This document shows, in pieces, positions 452-61,209 of a DNA stretch of 64,000 nucleotides. The DNA is taken from NCBI RefSeq assembly GCF_000178855.1, contig NZ_ADVG01000003.1, positions 2,467,341 to 2,531,340 on the forward strand, written 5' to 3'. The DNA comes from Ktedonobacter racemifer DSM 44963. Its GTDB lineage: Bacteria > Chloroflexota > Ktedonobacteria > Ktedonobacterales > Ktedonobacteraceae. Both the position numbers and the translations under genes were made by a program. The first letter of the stretch is position 1; the number at the start of each line of letters is the position of its first letter. The notes beneath the pieces were generated by a model. It made no database searches and had not been told where the DNA came from. It saw nothing but the letters and a program-made list of their open reading frames with translations.

Positions 452-2823
452 GTATTGGCGGCGCGCTTTTGCGCAAAGCGTTTGCTGATGTGACCCGACG
501 GAAAACACGCACGCTGGGAGTCATCCTGGGGATCGTGATCGGGGTCTTTGGCCTCACTGCCATCACGATGTTTCAGGATACCTACTTCGCAGCGCTAGCC
601 TACACGAATGCCGAGGTAAAGCAGGCCGATATCACCTTCGATGTTCAGGCAGTCGATCCAGCACTTGCGCCTCGACTGCTGGCTGTTCCAAATGTGCAAA
701 CGGCGGAATTTCACACCATTTCCCAAACAAGCTGGCACATTCAACGCGCTCCAGGGCGCATCTTCCTGGCTATCGTAGGCCTTCCCAACCCTACCCACAT
801 TGACATCAATGCATTTCAACTGCTCAGCGGGCATTATCCCGGCCCTGGGGAAATCGTGCTGGAGAGTGGAGATCGCGGCATTCAACCATTTGCCCTGGAT
901 GATGCGATTACGGTGGATACGCCACATGGCAGTTCCCAACTCCGCGTGGTTGGGATCGCACGTACACGAGGAAGCGGAGATCCGGCCACGAAAGGCAGCG
1001 CGCTTGCGTATATGAGTCAGCAGGGGCTTGCTCAATTCATGGATATTCAAGAGCCAAATGTCATTCAAATACGCGTGCATGATAAAGCTCAGGCTCAGGT
1101 AACGCAGGCTCAACTCCGCAACGTGCTCCAAGCATCTCATATCGCGATTATCGATAGCACCCTTCATACCGATAGTGTCAGCTCCAATCAACTCCTCGCG
1201 AATCTCTTCACACTCCTGCGTTTGCTTTCCATTGTAGCAATCGTGGTCTCCTGCTTTCTGGTTATCAATACGATCACGACTCTGCTTGCTGAGCAGATGC
1301 ATATCATTGGAACGATGAAGGCCATTGGGGGAGTGCAGCGAGCAATCTTTTTGAGTTACCTGCTCTCAGTTGGACTCTATACCATTGTAGGAACAATTTT
1401 AGGTCTCGCCTGTGGTATTGCAGGGGGATATATTCTTGCCGGAAAACTGGCCACCATTCACAATCTGGACCTGGGAGCTTTTACTATCCCGCCGGATGTT
1501 CTTGCCTTAGGACTGGCCGCTGGTTTATTGACACCAATACTGGCAGCGCTGCTGCCCTTATGGAATGGAACGCGTATCACGGTTCGTGATGCAGTCTCGG
1601 CCTATGGCATTTCTAGTATTGGGACACCTGCGCACCAGCGCTTGCGACAAGCTATCACCGAACGGCTGACCTGGGTTCCCCAAACAACCTGGCTGGGATT
1701 GCGGACGATCTTCCGCAAACGTGGGCGGGCGATCCTGACGATCCTGGCATTAGCCCTCTCTGGTACAACCTTTCTTGCCATTGCCAATGCAACCTACGCC
1801 ATCGATGCCCAGGTGACGAAACGTTATGAAGACTATCATTTCGATGTGAAGATTAATCAAGTGGCTGGAACACCTGAAGACGAGACTCATTTCCAGCATT
1901 GGATGCTGACGGTCCCCAATGTGCGCTCTATCGAGCGTTCTGGAACCGTGCAGATTCACACCCAATGGGGCAATGTGGACCTCTCTGGTGTCGATGAAGA
2001 TACGAGCATGTATCACCCTTCCATCGTTGCCGGGCGTTGGTTTCTGCCACATGAACGCCAGGTGCTGTTAGTGAGCGATGATGTTGCGAACCAGGCAGGG
2101 CTGCATGTTGGCGAAACGATCACTTTTTCAGCGCAAGAACATGCTGCAATCTGGAAGATCATCGGGATCATCCACGATCCCAATGTATCTATAGGTAGCA
2201 GCGGAAGCGCGGTGACCACACCGGAAAACCTCAATGCCCTGGTCGGTCTGCCACAAGAGGCGGGAGTGCAATGGTATCTACAAGCCAGCAATTCTTCACC
2301 TGCCGCAGTTGACGCCCTGGCAAGACGCCTGGATGCCACATTGAATCAGGGAAGGGGATCTTTACAGTTCGCCGTGACTCCCGTACAACAGGTCATCCAA
2401 AGTTCGCAGAACGAATTTAGTGATCTCTACATGATGTTCTATGTCGTCGCGCTGGTTGTCGCGCTAGTGGGTGCGCTCAGCCTGTACACGACTCTCACCT
2501 CGTCAGTGCTGGAACGGCGGCGTGAAATTGGCATCTGGCGCTCAATGGGAGCCAGTGGCAGGCGGATTGCCGGTATCTTCTGGACCGAGAGTCTGGCTCT
2601 GGGTATACTTGCCTGGGGAACTGGCCTGCTCTGTAGTATCCCATTGGCGTATGGGTTCCTCCAACTCCTCGGGCTTGTGCTGATCCATGCGTCGTTCACC
2701 TTTGATCCCTGGTTGTTTGTAGAAATGCTCATCGCGATTCTGGCCACTGCATCGCTAGCCAGCCTGAGTCCGATGCTGCGAGCGGCACGCGTGAGGATTG
2801 TCGATTTGCTCCACTACGAGTAA
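448..2823 (+). CDS. FtsX/MacB-type ABC transporter permease
   Basis: A 791-residue membrane protein that with the preceding ATPase forms a MacB-like exporter. An N-terminal transmembrane segment (about residues 22-45) is followed by a periplasmic MacB_PCD-like region, a first FtsX core (about 255-385, with the loop MHIIGTMKAIGG), a second N-anchored extracytoplasmic domain, and a second FtsX core (about 665-785, with REIGIWRSMGAS). The duplicated layout is usual for long FtsX permeases of Gram-positive bacteria and Chloroflexota. The ATG overlaps the ATPase stop (ATGA) behind the Shine-Dalgarno sequence AGGAGG. The substrate could be a lipoprotein, peptide or drug. Confidence 0.93.
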   Translation: MSIGGALLRKAFADVTRRKTRTLGVILGIVIGVFGLTAITMFQDTYFAALAYTNAEVKQADITFDVQAVDPALAPRLLAVPNVQTAEFHTISQTSWHIQRAPGRIFLAIVGLPNPTHIDINAFQLLSGHYPGPGEIVLESGDRGIQPFALDDAITVDTPHGSSQLRVVGIARTRGSGDPATKGSALAYMSQQGLAQFMDIQEPNVIQIRVHDKAQAQVTQAQLRNVLQASHIAIIDSTLHTDSVSSNQLLANLFTLLRLLSIVAIVVSCFLVINTITTLLAEQMHIIGTMKAIGGVQRAIFLSYLLSVGLYTIVGTILGLACGIAGGYILAGKLATIHNLDLGAFTIPPDVLALGLAAGLLTPILAALLPLWNGTRITVRDAVSAYGISSIGTPAHQRLRQAITERLTWVPQTTWLGLRTIFRKRGRAILTILALALSGTTFLAIANATYAIDAQVTKRYEDYHFDVKINQVAGTPEDETHFQHWMLTVPNVRSIERSGTVQIHTQWGNVDLSGVDEDTSMYHPSIVAGRWFLPHERQVLLVSDDVANQAGLHVGETITFSAQEHAAIWKIIGIIHDPNVSIGSSGSAVTTPENLNALVGLPQEAGVQWYLQASNSSPAAVDALARRLDATLNQGRGSLQFAVTPVQQVIQSSQNEFSDLYMMFYVVALVVALVGALSLYTTLTSSVLERRREIGIWRSMGASGRRIAGIFWTESLALGILAWGTGLLCSIPLAYGFLQLLGLVLIHASFTFDPWLFVEMLIAILATASLASLSPMLRAARVRIVDLLHYE

Positions 2824-2850
2824 TCAGAGCAGAGAACACCCTGGCTCCCG

Positions 2851-2902
2851 AGAAAGAGAGAGGGGCTGCCCTTTCATCCACAGCCTTCTCTCGCTTTCTT
2901 TT
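2851..2902 (+). terminator. possible terminator after the ABC permease gene
   Basis: An imperfect hairpin pairs AGAAAGAGAGAGG with CCTTCTCTCGCTTTCT and is followed by a short T run. It lies 28 bases after the permease stop, where an operon terminator is expected. The stem contains mismatches, so support is modest. Confidence 0.35.
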
Positions 2903-3167
2903 GGGCAGTGTTTATCACGGCAAAGTGCTCTATCCAGAGAAATGACCGGTCCAACTGACCCTATCTGACTTAGCCAAGGAGGAATTGGTCCGATCATTTT
3001 CACTGTTCGGCTTTCAACCTTAGGGAGATCTGTACTAGGTGTAGTATCGCTGTGTAGACGTGAAGGATGGACGGTTGCTTGTAACAACGGAAAGCGTGAG
3101 GCGACAGACAGACATCTCACGTATCAATAGTAGTGTTCTTCGTTCACTACCGAAAAAGGATGATACG

Positions 3168-7915: not shown

Positions 7916-8185
7916 GTTGAGCCTCCTGTTTCCAGGGTAATGTTTGCCTCGACAATGATAGAGGGCGGTACTTTTCCCTGAGCACTGCATAGACCCCGCT
8001 TTGCTGTTTAACCCAGAGATTCTAGAGCTACCGGCTGGCACACACCTGTAGGTAGGAACTTGAACACTTCTCCTCTATCGTAGTCTGATAACCTCCTGCC
8101 TCGCGCAGAAGGTCCATGGCTAAGTCTGGACAGGTCCGAGCTTGCTTTCACAAGCCCCTGCCTTTAGGCATGGGGTACCTGACTA
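7916..8185 (-). ncRNA. predicted omega RNA upstream of iscB
   Basis: IscB loci carry a structured guide RNA directly upstream of the gene. Here the 270 bases before the TTG start have no convincing reading frame, several self-complementary blocks, and end at the hairpin CCCCTGCC/GGCATGGGG (about 8157-8176) that marks the element's left end. By analogy the guide would be copied from sequence just outside that hairpin, near 8177-8200. Boundaries are approximate. Confidence 0.5.
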
Positions 8186-23796: not shown

Positions 23797-24951
23797 ATGA
23801 TCAAAGCCCACAAAATACGCCTTCATCCTACAGAGGAGCAAAAAACCTATTTTGCCAAAGCTGCAGGCACCTCGCGCTTCGTTTGGAACTGGGCACTCGC
23901 TGAGTGGAATCGGCAATACGAGGCTGGCGAAAAACCTACCGCCTTCAAGCTCAAGAAGCAGTTTAATGAGATCCGGAGAGCGCAGTATCCCTGGACGTGG
24001 GAGGTCACCAAGAATGCCTCTGATCAACCCTTCCTCGATCTGGCAAAAGCCTGGGCCGCGTATTTTGACGGCTTGAAACAGGGAAAAAAGACCGGTCGGC
24101 CCACATTCAAGAGCAAGAAGAAAAGCAAACTGAGCTTTTATCTCGCCAACGATCAATTCGAGCTTGGAGACCATCGGATCTGGATCCCCAAGCTCGGCTG
24201 GGTGAATATGGCAGAGACGTTACGTTTTGTGGGCAACGTGAGAGGTGCGCGCATCACCAAAACAGCAGACTGGTGGTTTGTCTCCATTCAGGTCGAACTC
24301 CCCGACCCTGTCCCAGTGAAGAAACCAGTCGCTGTTGGCATCGACGTGGGGCTGAACCGACTGGCCACCTTGAGCACAGGAGAGAAGGTCGAGAACCAAG
24401 CCTTCCTCAAAACCGCGCTCAAGAAACTTCGTCAGGCGAACAAGCGGCTCCATCGTCGCAAACTCGGCTCAAAAAATCGAGAGAAAGCTCGCAGACAGGT
24501 GGCACGACTCCACTATAAAGTGACCTGTCTGCGTGATGATGTGCTCCACAAGCTCACGACCCAGCTTGCCAACTGTTATGGGATCATTGGCATCGAGGAT
24601 CTCAACCTCAAGGGGTTGCTCAAGAATCGGCAGTTAGCTCGCTCGTTCTCCGATGCTGGGCTAGGCAAACTGTTGAACCTGCTTCTCAGCAAAGTCGGGC
24701 AGCGCGGTGGACAGGTAATCAAGGTAGGACGCTTCTTCCCTTCGAGTAAGGCCTGCCACTGCTGTGGGTGGAAATGGGAAGCGATGACGCTGAACGATCG
24801 CACCTTGGTCTGCCTGAATCCATCATGCCCCTATTATCAGTGCGCGCAGGACCGCGATCATAACGCAAGTCTGAATATCTTGAATGAAGCCCTTCGCTTG
24901 ATCGGGCTCATTGATCAAGCCGTCGGCGGTACTGGCTCGGACGCGACGTGA
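23797..24951 (+). CDS. tnpB: TnpB RNA-guided nuclease
   Basis: A 384-residue TnpB with N-terminal MIKAHKIRLHPTEEQKTYFA, RuvC-I D in VGIDVGLNRLA, RuvC-II E in IGIEDLNLKGL, zinc ribbon CHCCGW...CLNPSC, and RuvC-III D in CAQDRDHNASLN. It seems complete. ATG follows AAGATCAGG, a weak ribosome site. A close relative at 47032-49385 is truncated and intron-interrupted. Confidence 0.93.
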   Translation: MIKAHKIRLHPTEEQKTYFAKAAGTSRFVWNWALAEWNRQYEAGEKPTAFKLKKQFNEIRRAQYPWTWEVTKNASDQPFLDLAKAWAAYFDGLKQGKKTGRPTFKSKKKSKLSFYLANDQFELGDHRIWIPKLGWVNMAETLRFVGNVRGARITKTADWWFVSIQVELPDPVPVKKPVAVGIDVGLNRLATLSTGEKVENQAFLKTALKKLRQANKRLHRRKLGSKNREKARRQVARLHYKVTCLRDDVLHKLTTQLANCYGIIGIEDLNLKGLLKNRQLARSFSDAGLGKLLNLLLSKVGQRGGQVIKVGRFFPSSKACHCCGWKWEAMTLNDRTLVCLNPSCPYYQCAQDRDHNASLNILNEALRLIGLIDQAVGGTGSDAT

Positions 24952-45640: not shown

Positions 45641-47023
45641 ATGCTTTTCACCAATGCGACGGTTATCACGATGAATCCTCAACGCGACATCATCAATAAC
45701 GGAGCGATAGCCACCCAGGGAAATCGCATTGTTGCAATTGACAAAACTCCTGTTTTACGTGAACGCTATCCACTTGAAGAAGTCGTCGACGTTAGTGGGA
45801 AGGTGATCATTCCTGGACTGATTGATACGCATGTTCACTTGGCTCAGGCCCTCATTCGAGGCTGCGCTGATGACATGGCACTCATTCAATGGCTATGTGA
45901 CCGTGTATGGGTATTGCAGGGTAACTATACGCACGATGATGGCTATGTCAGTGCCCGACTCTGTATCGCCGAAATGCTGAAGTCGGGAACTACAACCTTC
46001 CTTGAATCTATGCTCGCTCATCGCTATGGCTTTGATGGTATCGCTCAAGCTGTAACCGAGAGCGGCATTCGCGCTTGCCTGGCAGGCATCGTTATGGATA
46101 TTGGTACCTACGCGACACAAGAGAGCTCGATGCATCCGGGTCTGATTGAGAGCCGTGAAACCAGTTTGCGTGGTGTACTGGACATGCATAGTAAGTGGCA
46201 GGGCGCGGCAAATGACCGCATTCATGTCTGGTTCGGCCCGCGCACGCCCGGTGGTGTTACCTCCGAACTCTACCGAGAGATGAGCGACTTGGCACGTCAA
46301 AGGGATATGGGCATCACTATGCACCTTGCTGAAGTCGAAGCCGATAAGATATTTCTCAATGAAAAATATGGCCTCTCTCCCGTTCTCTATGCCGAAAGCG
46401 TCGGCCTGCTCGGGCCGAAAACAGTACTTGTGCATATGGTTTGGCTCACAGAAGAAGATGTCAAACATTTAGCCGCAACAGGCACCCATGTCTCACACAA
46501 CCCTTCATCCAATAGTAAACTCGCCTCCGGTATCTGTAAGGTCCCGTTGATGCTTGAACACGGCGTCAATATCGCACTGGGCTGCGATGGTGGGCCAAGC
46601 AACAACGACTATGATATGATCCGCGAGATGAAATTAGCCGCGATCATCCACAAAGCTGTCACCTACGATCCATTGATCGTTCCCGCTGAGACTGTACTGG
46701 AGATGGCAACCATCAATGGCGCACGCGCGTTAGGTTTAGAACAAGAAATTGGTTCCCTGGAAATTGGCAAGAAAGCAGACCTCGTTGTGGTCGATCTCGA
46801 TCGCCTGCATACAACACCTTCACCCAACCTGGTCTCCACGCTTGTCTATGCTGCGACCGGTGGAGAAGTTGATACTGTTGTCGTCGATGGAAAGGTCGTC
46901 GTCAAAGAAGGACAACTGCTCAGCATGGATGAAAAAGAGATCAAGCGTCAGGCACGTGAACACGCCACGCAAGTCTATCGACGAGCGGGAATTGAAATTC
47001 ACTCGCGCTGGCCGATGAAATAA
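45641..47023 (+). CDS. amidohydrolase, guanine/8-oxoguanine deaminase-like (AtzB/TrzN group)
   Basis: A 460-residue metal-dependent deaminase of the amidohydrolase superfamily. Ligands: DTHVHLAQALIRG (about 63-75), MHLAEVEADK (about 227), HMVWLTEED (about 265) and the aspartate in LGCDGGPSNNDYDM (about 309). Similar proteins deaminate guanine, 8-oxoguanine, S-adenosylhomocysteine or chlorotriazines. The position next to the purine operon favours guanine or 8-oxoguanine, which would feed xanthine into it. Ribosome site AGGAG eight bases before the ATG. Confidence 0.85.
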   Translation: MLFTNATVITMNPQRDIINNGAIATQGNRIVAIDKTPVLRERYPLEEVVDVSGKVIIPGLIDTHVHLAQALIRGCADDMALIQWLCDRVWVLQGNYTHDDGYVSARLCIAEMLKSGTTTFLESMLAHRYGFDGIAQAVTESGIRACLAGIVMDIGTYATQESSMHPGLIESRETSLRGVLDMHSKWQGAANDRIHVWFGPRTPGGVTSELYREMSDLARQRDMGITMHLAEVEADKIFLNEKYGLSPVLYAESVGLLGPKTVLVHMVWLTEEDVKHLAATGTHVSHNPSSNSKLASGICKVPLMLEHGVNIALGCDGGPSNNDYDMIREMKLAAIIHKAVTYDPLIVPAETVLEMATINGARALGLEQEIGSLEIGKKADLVVVDLDRLHTTPSPNLVSTLVYAATGGEVDTVVVDGKVVVKEGQLLSMDEKEIKRQAREHATQVYRRAGIEIHSRWPMK

Positions 47024-47274
47024 CACTTCCGTTGAAACCAGAGAAAGAGTTCAACAAGATCAGGCGGGAGCAGTATCCCTGGACCTGGGAAGTGACCAAA
47101 AATGCCTCAGATCAGCCCTTCCTCGATCTGGCAAAAGCCTGGATCGCCTACTTTGAGGGCTTGAAGAACGGGAAAAAGACCGGTCGGCCCACATTCAAGA
47201 GCAAGAAGAAAAGCAGACCAGGCTTTTACCTGGCGAACGATCAATTTGAACTTGGGGACTATCGCATCTGGATT

Positions 47275-48626
47275 GTGCGCCGTGTCGGTGCAGAGAGTAA
47301 TACCTGTCACAGACAGGAGAGGTCGAGAGTGAAAACCTCTAGGACAAGAGCTAACCCGGAGGGGAAACCCAAAGGCGACTGTAGCATGCTCATAAAGCGA
47401 GAAATATCAGAAGGCATGTATGATAGAGTCTCGCAAGTCCTGTGTGCATGAAGCCCCGCTAGGGGGAGAGGTGAAACTGGCCAATTGTTGAACCTACGTT
47501 TCCGTGCGATGAAATGCGCATCCATCCCACCATGCCCAAAGGGATGACACTGAGAATACATCATAGGGGATCCAGATGATGGAAACACTCTCTCCAGTGA
47601 GCAGCGGGTAATGAACCCGATAGGAAACAAACGGGCACCTAAACACACTCAACGTTCTCTTTGCGCAAAAGCGGGATCGCCTAAAAGACGCGAGTCTCAT
47701 GGCGACGGAGTTGCCATAGTAGTGCGCCCATGTGGCACAAGAATCTCTCTCACCCGTCGGGGTGGGTCCACTGAAGCAGTGTGGATAAACCAGCAACTTA
47801 CTTTCGCTCGAAAGAGTCGAGGGGACCGTAGCATGTTGTATCAAAGGCGAGTGAAGTCCCAGTACCAGGGGCCAGAGGCTCGTCAGGTAAGTCGTGTATG
47901 GTGAAGACTGATTGTCTGAAGCCCAGTCAAGGCGGAACCGGGGCAGCCCACAGGAAACGGTACTAGCGCCTGTGTTCGACGTTGCCGGGAACGGTACTAC
48001 TTCCTGACAAAGCTTCCGTCGGAGCCTACCCGTAAGGAACGGGAAAAGACGTAAAGGACACCTGGAGCACGAACTGAGATTCTTGGAGGCAACTTGGGGT
48101 TGCCCTAACCACCGCGAGGTGTATGGGTACAGAGGGACCGAAGTAGTCGCGGAAGTCACGCCCCGCCGGGGCCTGTGAGAAAGACACAGACAGGGCGAAG
48201 GGTCCCAGGAACTCGTCTCAGCGGCAGAGGTTGGCCTGGATGGGCCACACGATCTTTGCGCAACGAGGCAAAGGGTTCTGGAGAGCTACAGTGCCATGAA
48301 AGTGGCCCGCTGGGTTCGGGAAGAGACCGTTGGAAAAGGGCTGAGTCCAGGAAACCACCTGAAACATCAGGCAGGTCAGGACAGCATCAGTACCTCGCTG
48401 GCGGTCTACTTCATCTCAAAGGCTTGGAGTAATGTCCGAGACATGGGGAAGGGCAACAGGTTATATGGGAGCGGAAAGGCAAGGGACGCGAAATGCGAAG
48501 AGCCAAACCTGAAAACTCCCAGAAGCTGGAGAGCCGGATGCTACGGAAACGGGCATGTCCGGTTCGGTGGGGGGCCGAGGGAAAAGGGCTGCCACAAGGC
48601 AATACCTCGCCCGCGGCCTACCCAAC
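47275..48626 (+). ncRNA. outer group II intron (ORF-less, contains a second intron)
   Basis: Begins with GTGCGCC and ends with a domain VI whose bulged A (48620) lies seven bases from the 3' end CTACCCAAC. Domain V is at 48531-48565 (GAGCCGGATG...GTCCGGTTC). The block GGCGACTGTAGCATG stands 99 bases from the 5' end, as in the other two introns of this window. Without the inner intron it would be 659 bases. No reverse transcriptase is encoded, so splicing or mobility help must come from elsewhere. Confidence 0.85.
47722..48414 (+). ncRNA. inner group II intron (ORF-less, 693 bases)
   Basis: Starts GTGCGCCCATG, has GGGGACCGTAGCATG at base 99, a domain V at 48283-48317 (GAGC TACAGTG, loop GAAA, closing GGGTTC), and a domain VI with GAAG-A-GACCG paired to CGGTC-TA-CTTC and a bulged A at 48408, ending CTTCAT. 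It interrupts the 5' half of the outer intron, making a twintron. No protein is encoded. Confidence 0.8.
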
Positions 48627-49385
48627 CCCAAGCTCGGCTGGGTCAACATGGCAGAGAAGCTTCGCTTCACAGGAAAAGTCACTGGGGTGCGTCTTACACG
48701 TCAAGCTGACTGGTGGTTTGTGAGTGTGACCGTCGAGGTGCCAGATGAATTTCCCCTGAGGAAGGGGCGCCCCAGTGTTGGCATCGATGTTGGCTTAAAT
48801 CACCTGGCGACCTTGAGCGATGGAACGGAATTTGAGAACCAAAGATTCCTGAAAACAGCGCTGAAGAAGCTTCGTCAAGCCAATAAGCGGCTCCATCGTC
48901 GAAAACCTGGATCCAAGAATCGTGAGAAGGCCCGTCGCAAAGTCGCCCGACTCCACTATAAAGTGGCATGCATGCGTGAGGATGTGCTGCAGAAACTGAC
49001 GACAAAAGCGGCGAACACCTTTGCGCTGGTTGGCATCGAAGACCTGCACATCAAGGGGCTGATGAAGAACCGGAAACTGTCTCGCTCCTTCTCTGACGCG
49101 GCTCTGGGTCGATTGCTCAGGCTCTTGAGCATGAAAGTGACTCATCGAGGTGGGGTAGTCGTCAAGGTGGATCGTTACTTTCCCAGCAGCCAACTCTGCT
49201 CACGGTGTGGGTGGCGTTGGAAGGATATTCGCCTCTCTGATCGCGTCTTTGTGTGCAAGAGCTGCGGTCTGGTGGCGGACCGCGACAAAAATGCCGCGCT
49301 CAATCTCTTGCAGGAAGCGCAGCGCCTGGTAGCTGCATTCCCACCATGTGAAGTCGACCACGGTACTGGCTCGGACGGGTCGTAA

Positions 49386-52987: not shown

Positions 52988-53803
52988 ATGAAAACACCGA
53001 GAAAACACTACAAGGTCCCAAACGGAGAGGTGCAACTCGCGGTCAGTGAGACCGGTCAGGGGCAGACGCTCCTGTTCTTCAACGGTGGTGGGGCAACACA
53101 AGTGTCCTGGAAGCGAATCATTGGCGAACTCAGGGGGCAGTATCGGCTCGTGACCTTCGATTTTCGCAATCATGGGAAAACCACCACCTCGCACAACACC
53201 TCCCTTGAGAGCTTCCTGACGGATGCGGAGGCCATGATGGACAAGGTTGCTCTCGATCGACCGATTCTGGTCGGCTGGTCTCTGGGGGCAGACCTGGCTG
53301 TCTGGTATGCGGCGAGCCATCCGGGGAAGGTGGCAGGACTGTTTCTCATAGACGGTGCGGTGCCGGTCAATCTCGTCAGTGATCCTCTTGATGTGAGGCG
53401 TCGACTCAACACCCCAGTGATGCGCATCGGGCCATTGCTCCTGTACCTGGTTGGCATGGGCTATCGCCTCACGCCTGACGAGTATGCGACTCTCACCATT
53501 GAGCTCAATAGACGCCGCGAGCAGCTTCTTTCGGCCTATGAAAAGCTCGACTGTCCAGTTGAGCTGGTTCTGGCAGCGAAAACAGCCGGGGAAAAGGGAG
53601 CGCGTGCTGAGCGAAACAATGCGTTGTGGCGGGCTGGCGGCGAGCAACTGGCAAGCGTACATCCAATGCTCTCTATCCAATGGCTGGACAACACCCACCT
53701 GCTCCCTTTCAAGGAACCGATAAAGCTCGCGCGATCTCTCGACGAGTTTGTGGGGCGGATTCAGGCTGGCGTGACCTTCGATGCGCAACGGATTCGTAGC
53801 TGA
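52988..53803 (+). CDS. alpha/beta hydrolase
   Basis: A 271-residue hydrolase. FFNGGGATQVSW is the oxyanion strand, FDFRNHGKT the typical loop, GWSLGA carries the nucleophile S98, and the base is the histidine in LDNTHLLPFKEP. The ATG follows GAGAGGTACGAGAGC. Cotranscribed with tetR. Substrate unknown; a compound that also induces the TetR repressor is a reasonable guess. Confidence 0.9.
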   Translation: MKTPRKHYKVPNGEVQLAVSETGQGQTLLFFNGGGATQVSWKRIIGELRGQYRLVTFDFRNHGKTTTSHNTSLESFLTDAEAMMDKVALDRPILVGWSLGADLAVWYAASHPGKVAGLFLIDGAVPVNLVSDPLDVRRRLNTPVMRIGPLLLYLVGMGYRLTPDEYATLTIELNRRREQLLSAYEKLDCPVELVLAAKTAGEKGARAERNNALWRAGGEQLASVHPMLSIQWLDNTHLLPFKEPIKLARSLDEFVGRIQAGVTFDAQRIRS

Positions 53804-53897
53804 GCAAAAGAATCTGCTGAAAAGAAGAAAGCTGTCTTGCGAACGCGCAAGGAGAGGAGGAGATCTCTTGAGAAACACAGAGGATATCCTTCCTCCC

Positions 53898-56087
53898 ATG
53901 GCGCAGGCTTCCGTCACCATCCAGATTACACCGGAATCAAAGCCTGCTATTCCATGCTGGATGGGCGAGGTAGCAGCCTTTGCTCAGATCCTCACCCATA
54001 CGGGAATCCTCAAACAAATCCAGGAGCAAGTGCGCTTCACGCGTGCCCGCTTCGGCCAGTACAATCTCATCGATTTTGTCACCGTGCTGATTGGCTACGT
54101 CCTTTCCGGTGAGCCAACGCTGCTGGCCTTTTACGAACGGTTGACTCCGTGGGCAGACGCCTTCATGGCCCTCTTTGGGCGAGACCAGTTGCCCCATCGA
54201 TCAACGTTGTCCCGGTTTCTCGCCGCTCTCGATCAACTAACGGTGGAAGCCCTGCGCACACGTTTTCAAGAGGATGTGCTTGCGCGCACTCCCTTTCCTT
54301 CCCCTGGTGGCCTGTTCGACCGGACAGGTGCGCGGTGGCTGGTCCTCGATGTGGATGGAACCCGACAAGCGGCTCGTCAACGAGCACTGCCGCAAACGGA
54401 CGCGTTGCCTGCTCCTCATTGGCGTTTCGATCAGGTGTGTGCCCCAGGGTATCAAGGACGCAAGCGGGGAGAAGTCGTCCGTACCAGAACTGTTGTGCTT
54501 CAGGCGCATACGCAGCAATTTCTCGGCACGTTTGGTGGGCCTGGCAACGGGGATTATCGTGGTGAGTTGCGACAAGCGATAGGGGTGATCAAGAACTACG
54601 CGACAAAATTTGGGCTTTCCACTGCTTCGGTGCTGCTTCGTCTGGATGGCCTCTATGGCGACGCCGCTCCGCTCATCGATGTCCTCACGGCTGGACTTGG
54701 CGTGATCGTCAGAAGTCGTGCTTACCACCTGCTCGATCTGGAAATGGTCAAGCAGACGCTTGCCAGCGCTTCGGATCACGTGTGTACCCATCCAGAAAGT
54801 GGGATGACGCGGACCCTCTACGATTGTGTGTCCGTCCCCTTGACGCCAACTGGCCCCGAGGTGCGCCTGGTGATCGCTACCCATGCCGTCACCTCCTCAC
54901 CCGCCGACGTCGGGGTGGAGCGAGACGGTATCGTCTACGAACTGTTTGTCAGCACACTTCCCTCTCCGGCGTCGGGGTGGAGCGAGACGGTATCGTCTAC
55001 GAACTGTTTGTCAGCACACTTCCCTCTCCGGCGTCGGGGTGGAGCGAGACGGTATCGTCTACGAACTGTTTGTCAGCACACTTCCCTCTCCGGCGTCGGG
55101 GTGGAGCGAGACGGTATCGTCTACGAACTGTTTGTCAGCACACTTCCCTCTCCGGCGTTTCCTGCCTCGGATGTGCTTGACCTCTACCTGCATCGCGGAT
55201 CGTTTGAGACGGTGCTCGCGGATGAGGATGTCGAACAGAACGCAGATCGGTGGTACTCTCATACCCAGTGCGGCCAGGAGTTTGCCCAGATCCTGGCGTA
55301 GTGGGTATGGAACCTGCGCCTAGAGATGGGGCAGAAGCTTTCTCCGGAAGACGCGCGTACCACCGAATTCGCCAAAGCTCTGGTGGTTGAACAACCATTT
55401 CCCATCGAGCCATCTCTCGCCGTCGAGCCTGTACCTTCGGAGAAGAAACCAATGCTGCAAGTTCAGTACGGCCCTCCGAAATTTGCTCGTCCTTCGTTTA
55501 CCAAAGGCTTCCCTGGGTCTGCGTTTCCCCCGCAACCCGATGGAACGCTGCGCTGCCCTGCCAACCATCCCCTGTATCCCCAGGAACGGCGTCCTGAGCG
55601 CGATGGCTCCTTGCGGATCTTGTATGCCGCACGCATCAGCCATTGCCGCTCCTGTCCCTTGTGGGCACAGTGTCAAGAGAGCAGCACCACGCGCAAACTG
55701 CGCCGGGTGAGTGCGGTGCTGTGGCCACTGGACGCTTCTCGCTCGGATGTCTCACCTCCTCAGGGAAAAGCGCCTCAAGAGCTTCCTCTTGCTCCGGTTC
55801 TCTGGAGAGATTGGCCACGCTGTGGCATCCGGCGTGCCTGGCTCAAAGTGGTCCGAAGCCAGACCGTCCGGTTGGAAAGCTCCATCCCTGCCAATCCTTC
55901 ACCTGCCCCCGCGCAGATCTTGCCCACCTTGACCCGAGCGAAGCGTGCGCATTGGCGTCTGTCCTGGGAGGAGCGGTTCGCTCGCAATGCCCGTCCATCC
56001 GATGCTCCCAGGCTTGTCGTCATGCTGCACGGTCTGCCGGCCACCTTTGCTCGCTCTTTTGGCTTTGATCTGCTCGCCACCGCTTAA
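53898..56087 (+). pseudogene. IS4-superfamily-like DDE transposase with tandem repeat and stop
   Basis: N-terminal region as in 25078-26123 (LPHRSTLSRFLAALDQLTVE), first aspartate in VLDVDGTRQAARQ, second in LLRLDGLYGDAAPL, then four 62-base tandem units. The frame survives the repeat but meets TAG at 55299-55301, where relatives have a glutamine codon (ILA-stop-WVWNL). It then continues in the same frame through a Cys-rich segment (CRSCPLWAQCQE) to the end. It is probably inactive. Family assignment beyond a DDE transposase is uncertain. Confidence 0.85.
54909..55156. repeat. four tandem copies of a 62-bp unit
   Basis: Units start at 54909, 54971, 55033 and 55095 and are almost identical. 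A single unit encodes VGVERDGIVYELFVSTLPSP in the normal protein. Because 62 is not a multiple of three, each copy is read in a new frame, but three extra copies (186 bases) restore the frame. Confidence 0.95.
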
Positions 56088-60489: not shown

Positions 60490-61209
60490 GTAGAGTAGGG
60501 GCCGGTCGCCCATTACTGGGTCGCCCGTACCCCTCTCTCCGAACCGGTACGTGCCGCTTCTCACGGCATACGGCTCTCCACTTCGCCTGAGTACTTGCTT
60601 CTGAGTTATCGGGACAGCATCAGCACATCCCACTTTCCTCTTCGGTGTTCTTCAGGCTCCGCTAGCTCACTTCCCCCCAGACAGAGTTGGTTTCGTCTGT
60701 GTTACCACAGCTTATCCCTCTTGCCGGTACTGCTCTATGCAGTCAGCACAAGCCATTACAGCCGCACATTGGGTAATATTGAGCTTCCGTCATCATGCAG
60801 GTGTAACCCTGTTTAGATGATCCCGCATTTTCAGCAGAGCGAGTTTAGACGTGCTCCAGGCGTCCCGTTCGTCCCGTATTGCCCTCGTAGAAAGGGTCTG
60901 CCAACATCGATGGATAAGGCCGCATCTGCATTCTACGTCCTTAGATGTTGGACCCAACGTTTGTAGTCACCTTCCGTTGGAGTCGCGGGTGAAGACCAGT
61001 AGGACTAGGATTGACGCAGTTTAGCATTCGCCATACACGTCTTGCACTAACCACCCAGAGGATTGGTGACTTCCTCTTACATGGCTGTCCTCGCATGCTA
61101 TGGTCGCCCTCCTCTTTCGAGGGTTGGGGTAAGCGAGGAGTGCATAGAACCGTCCATCAGTTCTAATACCTTTTTGGTACACTCACTTTCTGCCGCTGAT
61201 GCGGCGCAC
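60490..61209 (-). ncRNA. ORF-less group II intron (720 bases)
   Basis: On the minus strand it starts GTGCGCCGCATC, has GGGCGACCATAGCATG 100 bases from its 5' end, a domain V reading GAGCCGTATG...GTACCGGTTC, and a domain VI with a bulged A in CCCCTACTCTAC at its 3' end. These match the two introns at 47275-48626. No reverse transcriptase is encoded. The flanks are non-coding inverted repeats, not a gene. Confidence 0.85.

Follow-up and report, generated by a model that had tools for sequence, protein, structure and literature searches.

An ORF-less group II intron nested within another ORF-less group II intron in a tnpB gene of Ktedonobacter racemifer

Twintrons, and even the preference of an intron for a site within another intron, are already known. 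In Thermosynechococcus elongatus the intron TeI3 resides in TeI4 (Mohr et al. 2010; PMC2882425). There, as in Ktedonobacter racemifer, the mobile units are ORF-less introns that stem from a relative with an ORF. They home to a single conserved site in further group II introns of the same genome, the IEP acts in trans (which is inferred for Ktedonobacter) and there are multiple nests. However, the T. elongatus site lies in domain IV between two IEP start codons, whereas we assign the Ktedonobacter site to the internal loop of domain III, and five described nests compare with 37 loci, four ORF-less inner types and approximately 14 kinds of outer intron. Sequential splicing has been shown for a twintron of Trichodesmium erythraeum (Pfreundt and Hess 2015; PMC4649490), which is likewise a group II twintron in a protein-coding gene with the inner intron inside the ribozyme part of the outer one. 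It differs in being a single case, in the location of the inner intron in domain I and in the IEPs encoded by both introns. For the nested arrays of Methanosarcina acetivorans (Dai and Zimmerly 2003), we rely on the account given in PMC4424553. As far as this account goes, group II introns have there, as in Ktedonobacter, repeatedly homed to specific sites in other group II introns and formed stacks; the arrays lack coding exons, and by the title of the original report their targets are related intron ORFs. In the plastid of Porphyridium, one inner intron occupies the same target in two different outer introns (PMC4476101), a situation similar to ours, except for the plastid location, the insertion in domain IV and the IEP remnants of the outer introns. 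The genome paper of K. racemifer counted 34 reverse transcriptases and did not mention twintrons (PMC3236041). The open-access literature, to which we were restricted, was searched for Ktedonobacter introns and for TnpB in connection with ORF-less group II introns; it contained no description of these nests, nor of an intron family that targets domain III. A cultured bacterium is available which offers natural filled and empty alleles for testing ordered multi-step splicing, trans-acting maturases and the invasion of ribozymes by ribozymes. The nests also bear on the origin of intron-rich genomes and on the dependence on splicing.

In the window, i.e., the whole stretch of 64,000 nucleotides analyzed here, the interval 47275-48626 was confirmed as a real group II twintron in which an ORF-less intron lies inside another ORF-less intron, as far as this can be judged from sequence; splicing itself is inferred. 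The features of the locus are:

23944..24906 (+), uninterrupted tnpB relative (70% identity), which shows the exon junction without an intron
47032..47274 (+), 5' exon, N-terminally truncated tnpB fragment (LKPEKEFNKIRR...DYRIWI), by comparison with the full-length relatives L090 and L029
47265..47274 (+), predicted outer IBS1 CATCTGGATT, complementary to 47569-47578
47275-47721 plus 48415-48626 (+), outer intron O1 in total, ORF-less group II, 659 nt
47275..47721 (+), 5' part of O1, domain I up to the 5' strand of domain III; approximately 100% identity at 9 loci with different exons
47569..47578 (+), predicted outer EBS1 GATCCAGATG, 10 bp with IBS1 including one G-U
47710..47715 (+), basal helix of outer domain III, 5' strand GTTGCC, supported by covariation
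47716..47721 (+), predicted inner IBS1 ATAGTA, within the internal loop of outer domain III
47722..48414 (+), inner intron type A, ORF-less group II, 693 nt; 15 copies, 95-100% identity, with exactly these ends
47995..48000 (+), predicted inner EBS1 TACTAC (TACTA pairs with TAGTA), at the homologous position in A, B, C, D and P
48281..48414 (+), inner domain V/VI, Rfam RF00029, 39.6 bits, E=7.8e-6 (local scan)
48408 (+), predicted inner branch-point A, 7 nt from the 3' end, read from the sequence
48415..48626 (+), 3' part of O1, remainder of domain III followed by domains IV, V and VI; 100% identity at 9 loci
48452..48457 (+), basal helix of outer domain III, 3' strand GGCAAC, supported by covariation
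48529..48626 (+), outer domain V/VI, Rfam RF00029, 51.6 bits
48620 (+), predicted outer branch-point A, 7 nt from the 3' end, read from the sequence
48627..49385 (+), 3' exon, tnpB with OrfB/RuvC-type domain and TNB zinc finger (Pfam PF01385 and PF07282 on the joined protein)

The original prediction had proposed an intron within an intron on the basis of two GTGCGCC 5' ends and two sets of domains V/VI. Both 5' ends were located (47275 and 47722), and the covariance search gave two domains V, not one. Measured by the curated cut-off of Rfam Intron_gpII (RF00029), which is 40 bits, the match of O1 was clearly above and that of the inner intron 0.4 bits below the limit, the lower stem of the latter being mismatched; the related inner introns C (L090) and P (L032) scored 47.9 and 60.8 bits, respectively. 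The ends of O1 fit the group II rule (GUGYG at the 5' end, AY at the 3' end and a branch A 7-8 nt away) with GTGCGCC at 47275, AC at 48626 and A48620. The block GTAGCATG, said to stand 99 bases from both 5' ends, occurs only twice in the window (47381 and 47828). Its distance is indeed the same in both introns but amounts to 106 bases from the respective GTGCGCC, the lower number being a counting error. Neither intron encodes a reverse transcriptase, as had been claimed, since both units are too short for approximately 600 residues.

That the inner ends are genuine intron boundaries, a further point of the prediction, was confirmed by natural empty sites and by other copies of the inner family, which possess the same ends; eight other copies of the outer intron independently confirmed the outer ends. 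A search of the whole genome with the twintron yielded dozens of partial matches that broke off exactly at the intron ends. The 15 copies of inner A have identical ends in different outer introns and thus mark a unit with its own exact boundaries and mobility. For a twintron, the inner intron has to lie wholly inside the outer one and each has to be complete after removal of the inner intron. This is borne out by an empty/filled pair of another outer intron, which is empty in L021, L049, L050 and L076 and filled with inner B in L071: without inner B, L071 could be aligned to the empty L050 without gaps over 1161 bp (98.9%). It is also borne out by the domain III helix, which is restored in the outer introns on removal of the inner ones.

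Removal of 47275-48626 joins DYRIWI^PKLGWVN in frame, as foreseen, and the uninterrupted tnpB gene at 23944-24906 has the same junction. The statement that the twintron sits in the nuclease gene of a transposon was right as to tnpB, but the copy found here is a 5'-truncated relic. It is devoid of about 70 N-terminal residues present in the full-length relatives, and an amidohydrolase-type ORF terminates at 47023, ahead of the tnpB fragment (47032). As the TnpB product would be N-terminally truncated, the locus is more an intron harbor than a working nuclease gene, and there is no selection for splicing through this gene. The same outer intron with inner C is situated in a full-length, frame-intact tnpB gene in L090; in several of the remaining tnpB hosts, the frame is shifted.

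O1 was present at nine genomic places with approximately 100% identity and differing exons. Seven of the hosts are tnpB genes (the one in the window and six with exons 66-84% alike to its own), while L066 and L083 lie elsewhere. All nine copies are occupied at the same base. Inner A is found in L066 and in L051, the locus of the window, inner B (651 nt) in L026 and L083, and inner C (653 nt) in L029, L067, L089, L090 and L092. No empty O1 was detected in the assembly: a query with the joined junction detected the two O1 halves nine times but never joined. The pairing of EBS1 GATCCAGATG with IBS1 CATCTGGATT of the 5' exon satisfies the expectation for a group II intron, and TGGRTH directly precedes the intron at all nine sites, including the two outside tnpB. 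A cognate IEP of O1 was not identified by blastn of O1, A, B and C against GIIM-type IEP introns. Because the only match was a P-like part in L094, no cognate protein was named.

Within the genome (13,661,586 bases, 13.66 Mb, assembled in 10 contigs with many repeats), the inner family comprises 49 copies, namely the ORF-less types A (15), B (12), C (6) and D (12) and the intron P (4). According to our own reading of the flanks, 42 of the 49 copies are either inserted into the domain III of a different group II intron or stacked upon a copy so inserted, at 37 loci and in approximately 14 kinds of outer intron. Types A, C and P were nested without exception; some copies of B and D lie outside introns. 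Inner D was detected in a transposase gene and, at L040 and L057, in a pair of paralogous Ser/Thr kinase-WD40 genes (TEALQ^YAHDRKVIHRD), and its removal closes the frames. In the kinase genes, it is located just before the HRD motif (intron 2505-3155 of the oriented locus). Stacks were found in the arrangements B-A (L031), B-cctac-A (L025) and B-cctac-B-A (L022), and L081 is a nest of three levels, in which an outer intron contains B and A is inserted three bases into the latter. The original prediction had recommended looking for an intron-encoded protein acting in trans. The candidate in this genome is that of intron P, which has a length of 2480 nt and harbors a reverse transcriptase frame of 644 aa, intact in three of the four copies. 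The LtrA-like protein contains the domains RVT_1 and Intron_maturas2, matches HNH weakly and is similar to LtrA over 590 residues (4e-96). Probably, the related intron P supplies the reverse transcriptase for the inner family, although its action in trans is inferred. In some outer introns, a maturase gene follows 3' of the nest.

The fold of the outer intron without the inner one places the insertion site in the 5' strand of an internal loop, within the stem-loop that follows domain II. From the order of the domains and from this fold, we assigned the site to the internal loop of domain III; the assignment is our own. It was examined for covariation in 12 distinct outer introns, one of them empty. 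In the basal and distal helices, 98.6% of the cells were paired, compared to 74% after shuffling, and for 10 of 12 pairs, compensatory changes of both partners occurred in one or more of the sequences. The covariation score was 0.80 versus 0.29 for shuffled sequences (reached in none of 500 shuffles), and covariation was lost on sliding by one base. The inner intron separates the two strands of the basal helix, which has thus been preserved in spite of the insertion. In L031, the 5' strand GTTGCC of outer domain III no longer matches the 3' strand (GGGAAT), while the near-identical outer intron in L022 does match; the former looks like a chimera that may have arisen by recombination at the insertion site.

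The target of the inner introns is the strand RTAGTA^CTCAAA, which is conserved in the internal loop of outer domain III. The corresponding EBS1 is TACTAC in A, B and D and TACTAT in C. Intron P possesses the EBS1 TCATAT and sits at ATATGA, whereas its relative in genome G001 combines TACTATT with the site AATAGTA. The difference is a natural compensatory change. In B, C and D, domain III contains CATACGAG or CATAGGAG where other introns carry the target TAGTA. We infer that loss of the target would protect B, C and D from one another.

Other Ktedonobacteraceae likewise contain related nests. The relatives of the K. racemifer genome include Ktedonobacter sp. SOSP1-85 and Ktedonospora formicarum. 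Among 84,980 genomes, the exact motif (left half of domain III followed by KTGCGMC) was found in only two other species, both Ktedonobacteraceae. By our reading, G001 and G003 have comparable nests, and a member of a different genus (G022) has one with a changed site. No relatives of the P protein were detected in viral contigs and no inner intron in plasmids.

We are confident, short of certainty, that the interval is a true group II twintron for which O1 homed to tnpB and inner A to domain III of O1, with the reverse transcriptase probably coming in trans from P. The boundaries, the nesting, the empty and filled sites and the exchange of inner introns at one base were observed, and so were the covariation of domain III, the complementarity of EBS1 and IBS1 and the existence of a candidate IEP. 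In this pathway, the ORF-less O1 would have homed to the conserved ATCTGGATT site of tnpB via EBS1/IBS1 pairing, and the ORF-less inner A via its EBS1 (TACTA) to the RTAGTA^CTCAAA strand in the internal loop of outer domain III. Since the insertion splits domain III, excision of the inner RNA, likely aided in trans by P or a different maturase, is expected to precede that of the outer one; it would restore domain III, whereupon the outer intron could be spliced and the tnpB exons joined. Splicing in vivo, the order of splicing and retrohoming in trans by the P protein are inferred in the absence of transcript data. Single nests may also be misjoins of an assembly with 10 contigs and many repeats; for the whole set this could hardly be the case. 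In the same reading, the inner family is a lineage specialized on the domain III site of other group II introns, and the genome contains at least 37 nests because this one family always enters its host introns at a single position of their folded core. Going further, this mostly ORF-less Ktedonobacteraceae lineage may consist of hyperparasites whose main niche is the domain III, in the ribozyme core, of others. The host intron would then be held hostage, because it could splice only after the inner intron, and B, C and D, lacking a target of their own, would spare one another. We incline to this extension with some reservation.

In introns of the Clostridium tetani type, which have multiple domains V/VI, several 3' ends share a single 5' part. 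Two domain V/VI sets in a row on one strand would also be expected from one larger intron of this kind, whose duplicated domains provide alternative 3' splice sites as in C.te.I1. Yet the interval contains two complete 5' parts, the inner intron possesses a 5' end and a domain I of its own, and its family is found alone in other genes. The natural empty sites and the exchange of the inner intron for others at the same base refute this reading, to which we concede practically no chance. The complete occupancy of O1, also at the two places outside tnpB, might indicate that outer and inner intron move as one composite unit with the inner intron as passive cargo instead of a homing element. We hold this to be quite improbable, since identical O1 copies carry three different inner introns and the same inner introns are shared by numerous unrelated outer introns and have relatives within genes.

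It is also conceivable that the nests are fossils, i.e., that broken introns, having lost the ability to splice or move, were spread by composite transposition or by recombination between repeats. The truncated tnpB gene of the window and the frameshifts in several other host tnpB genes would agree with this, and the stacks (B-A, B-cctac-B-A and A in B) do not all look like clean, splice-competent nests. However, inner and outer copies are near-identical at unrelated sites, the domain III helix is preserved across the insertion, EBS1 and IBS1 agree at the sites, the IEP frames of P are intact, and the ORF-less D insertions in kinase genes restore the frame on removal. Fossil nests are therefore unlikely in our opinion, though they deserve to be kept in mind.

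Group II introns are abundant in this genome, with at least 147 domain V matches and 61 maturase-domain matches. The window itself harbors a second ORF-less group II intron at 60490-61209 (-), in which GTGCGCC lies approximately 631 bases before domain V (49.7 bits); two further domain V matches of the same score are located elsewhere in the genome. HEARO RNA is the RNA partner of IscB-type nucleases, and a match to it (RF02033, 122.5 bits) was found at 7937-8183 (-). A transposase-like frame at 53781-55301 (+) shows repeats of GVGVERDGIVYELFVSTLPSPA and frame-shifted readings from approximately 54860; the repeats represent a short tandem DNA repeat inside this gene.
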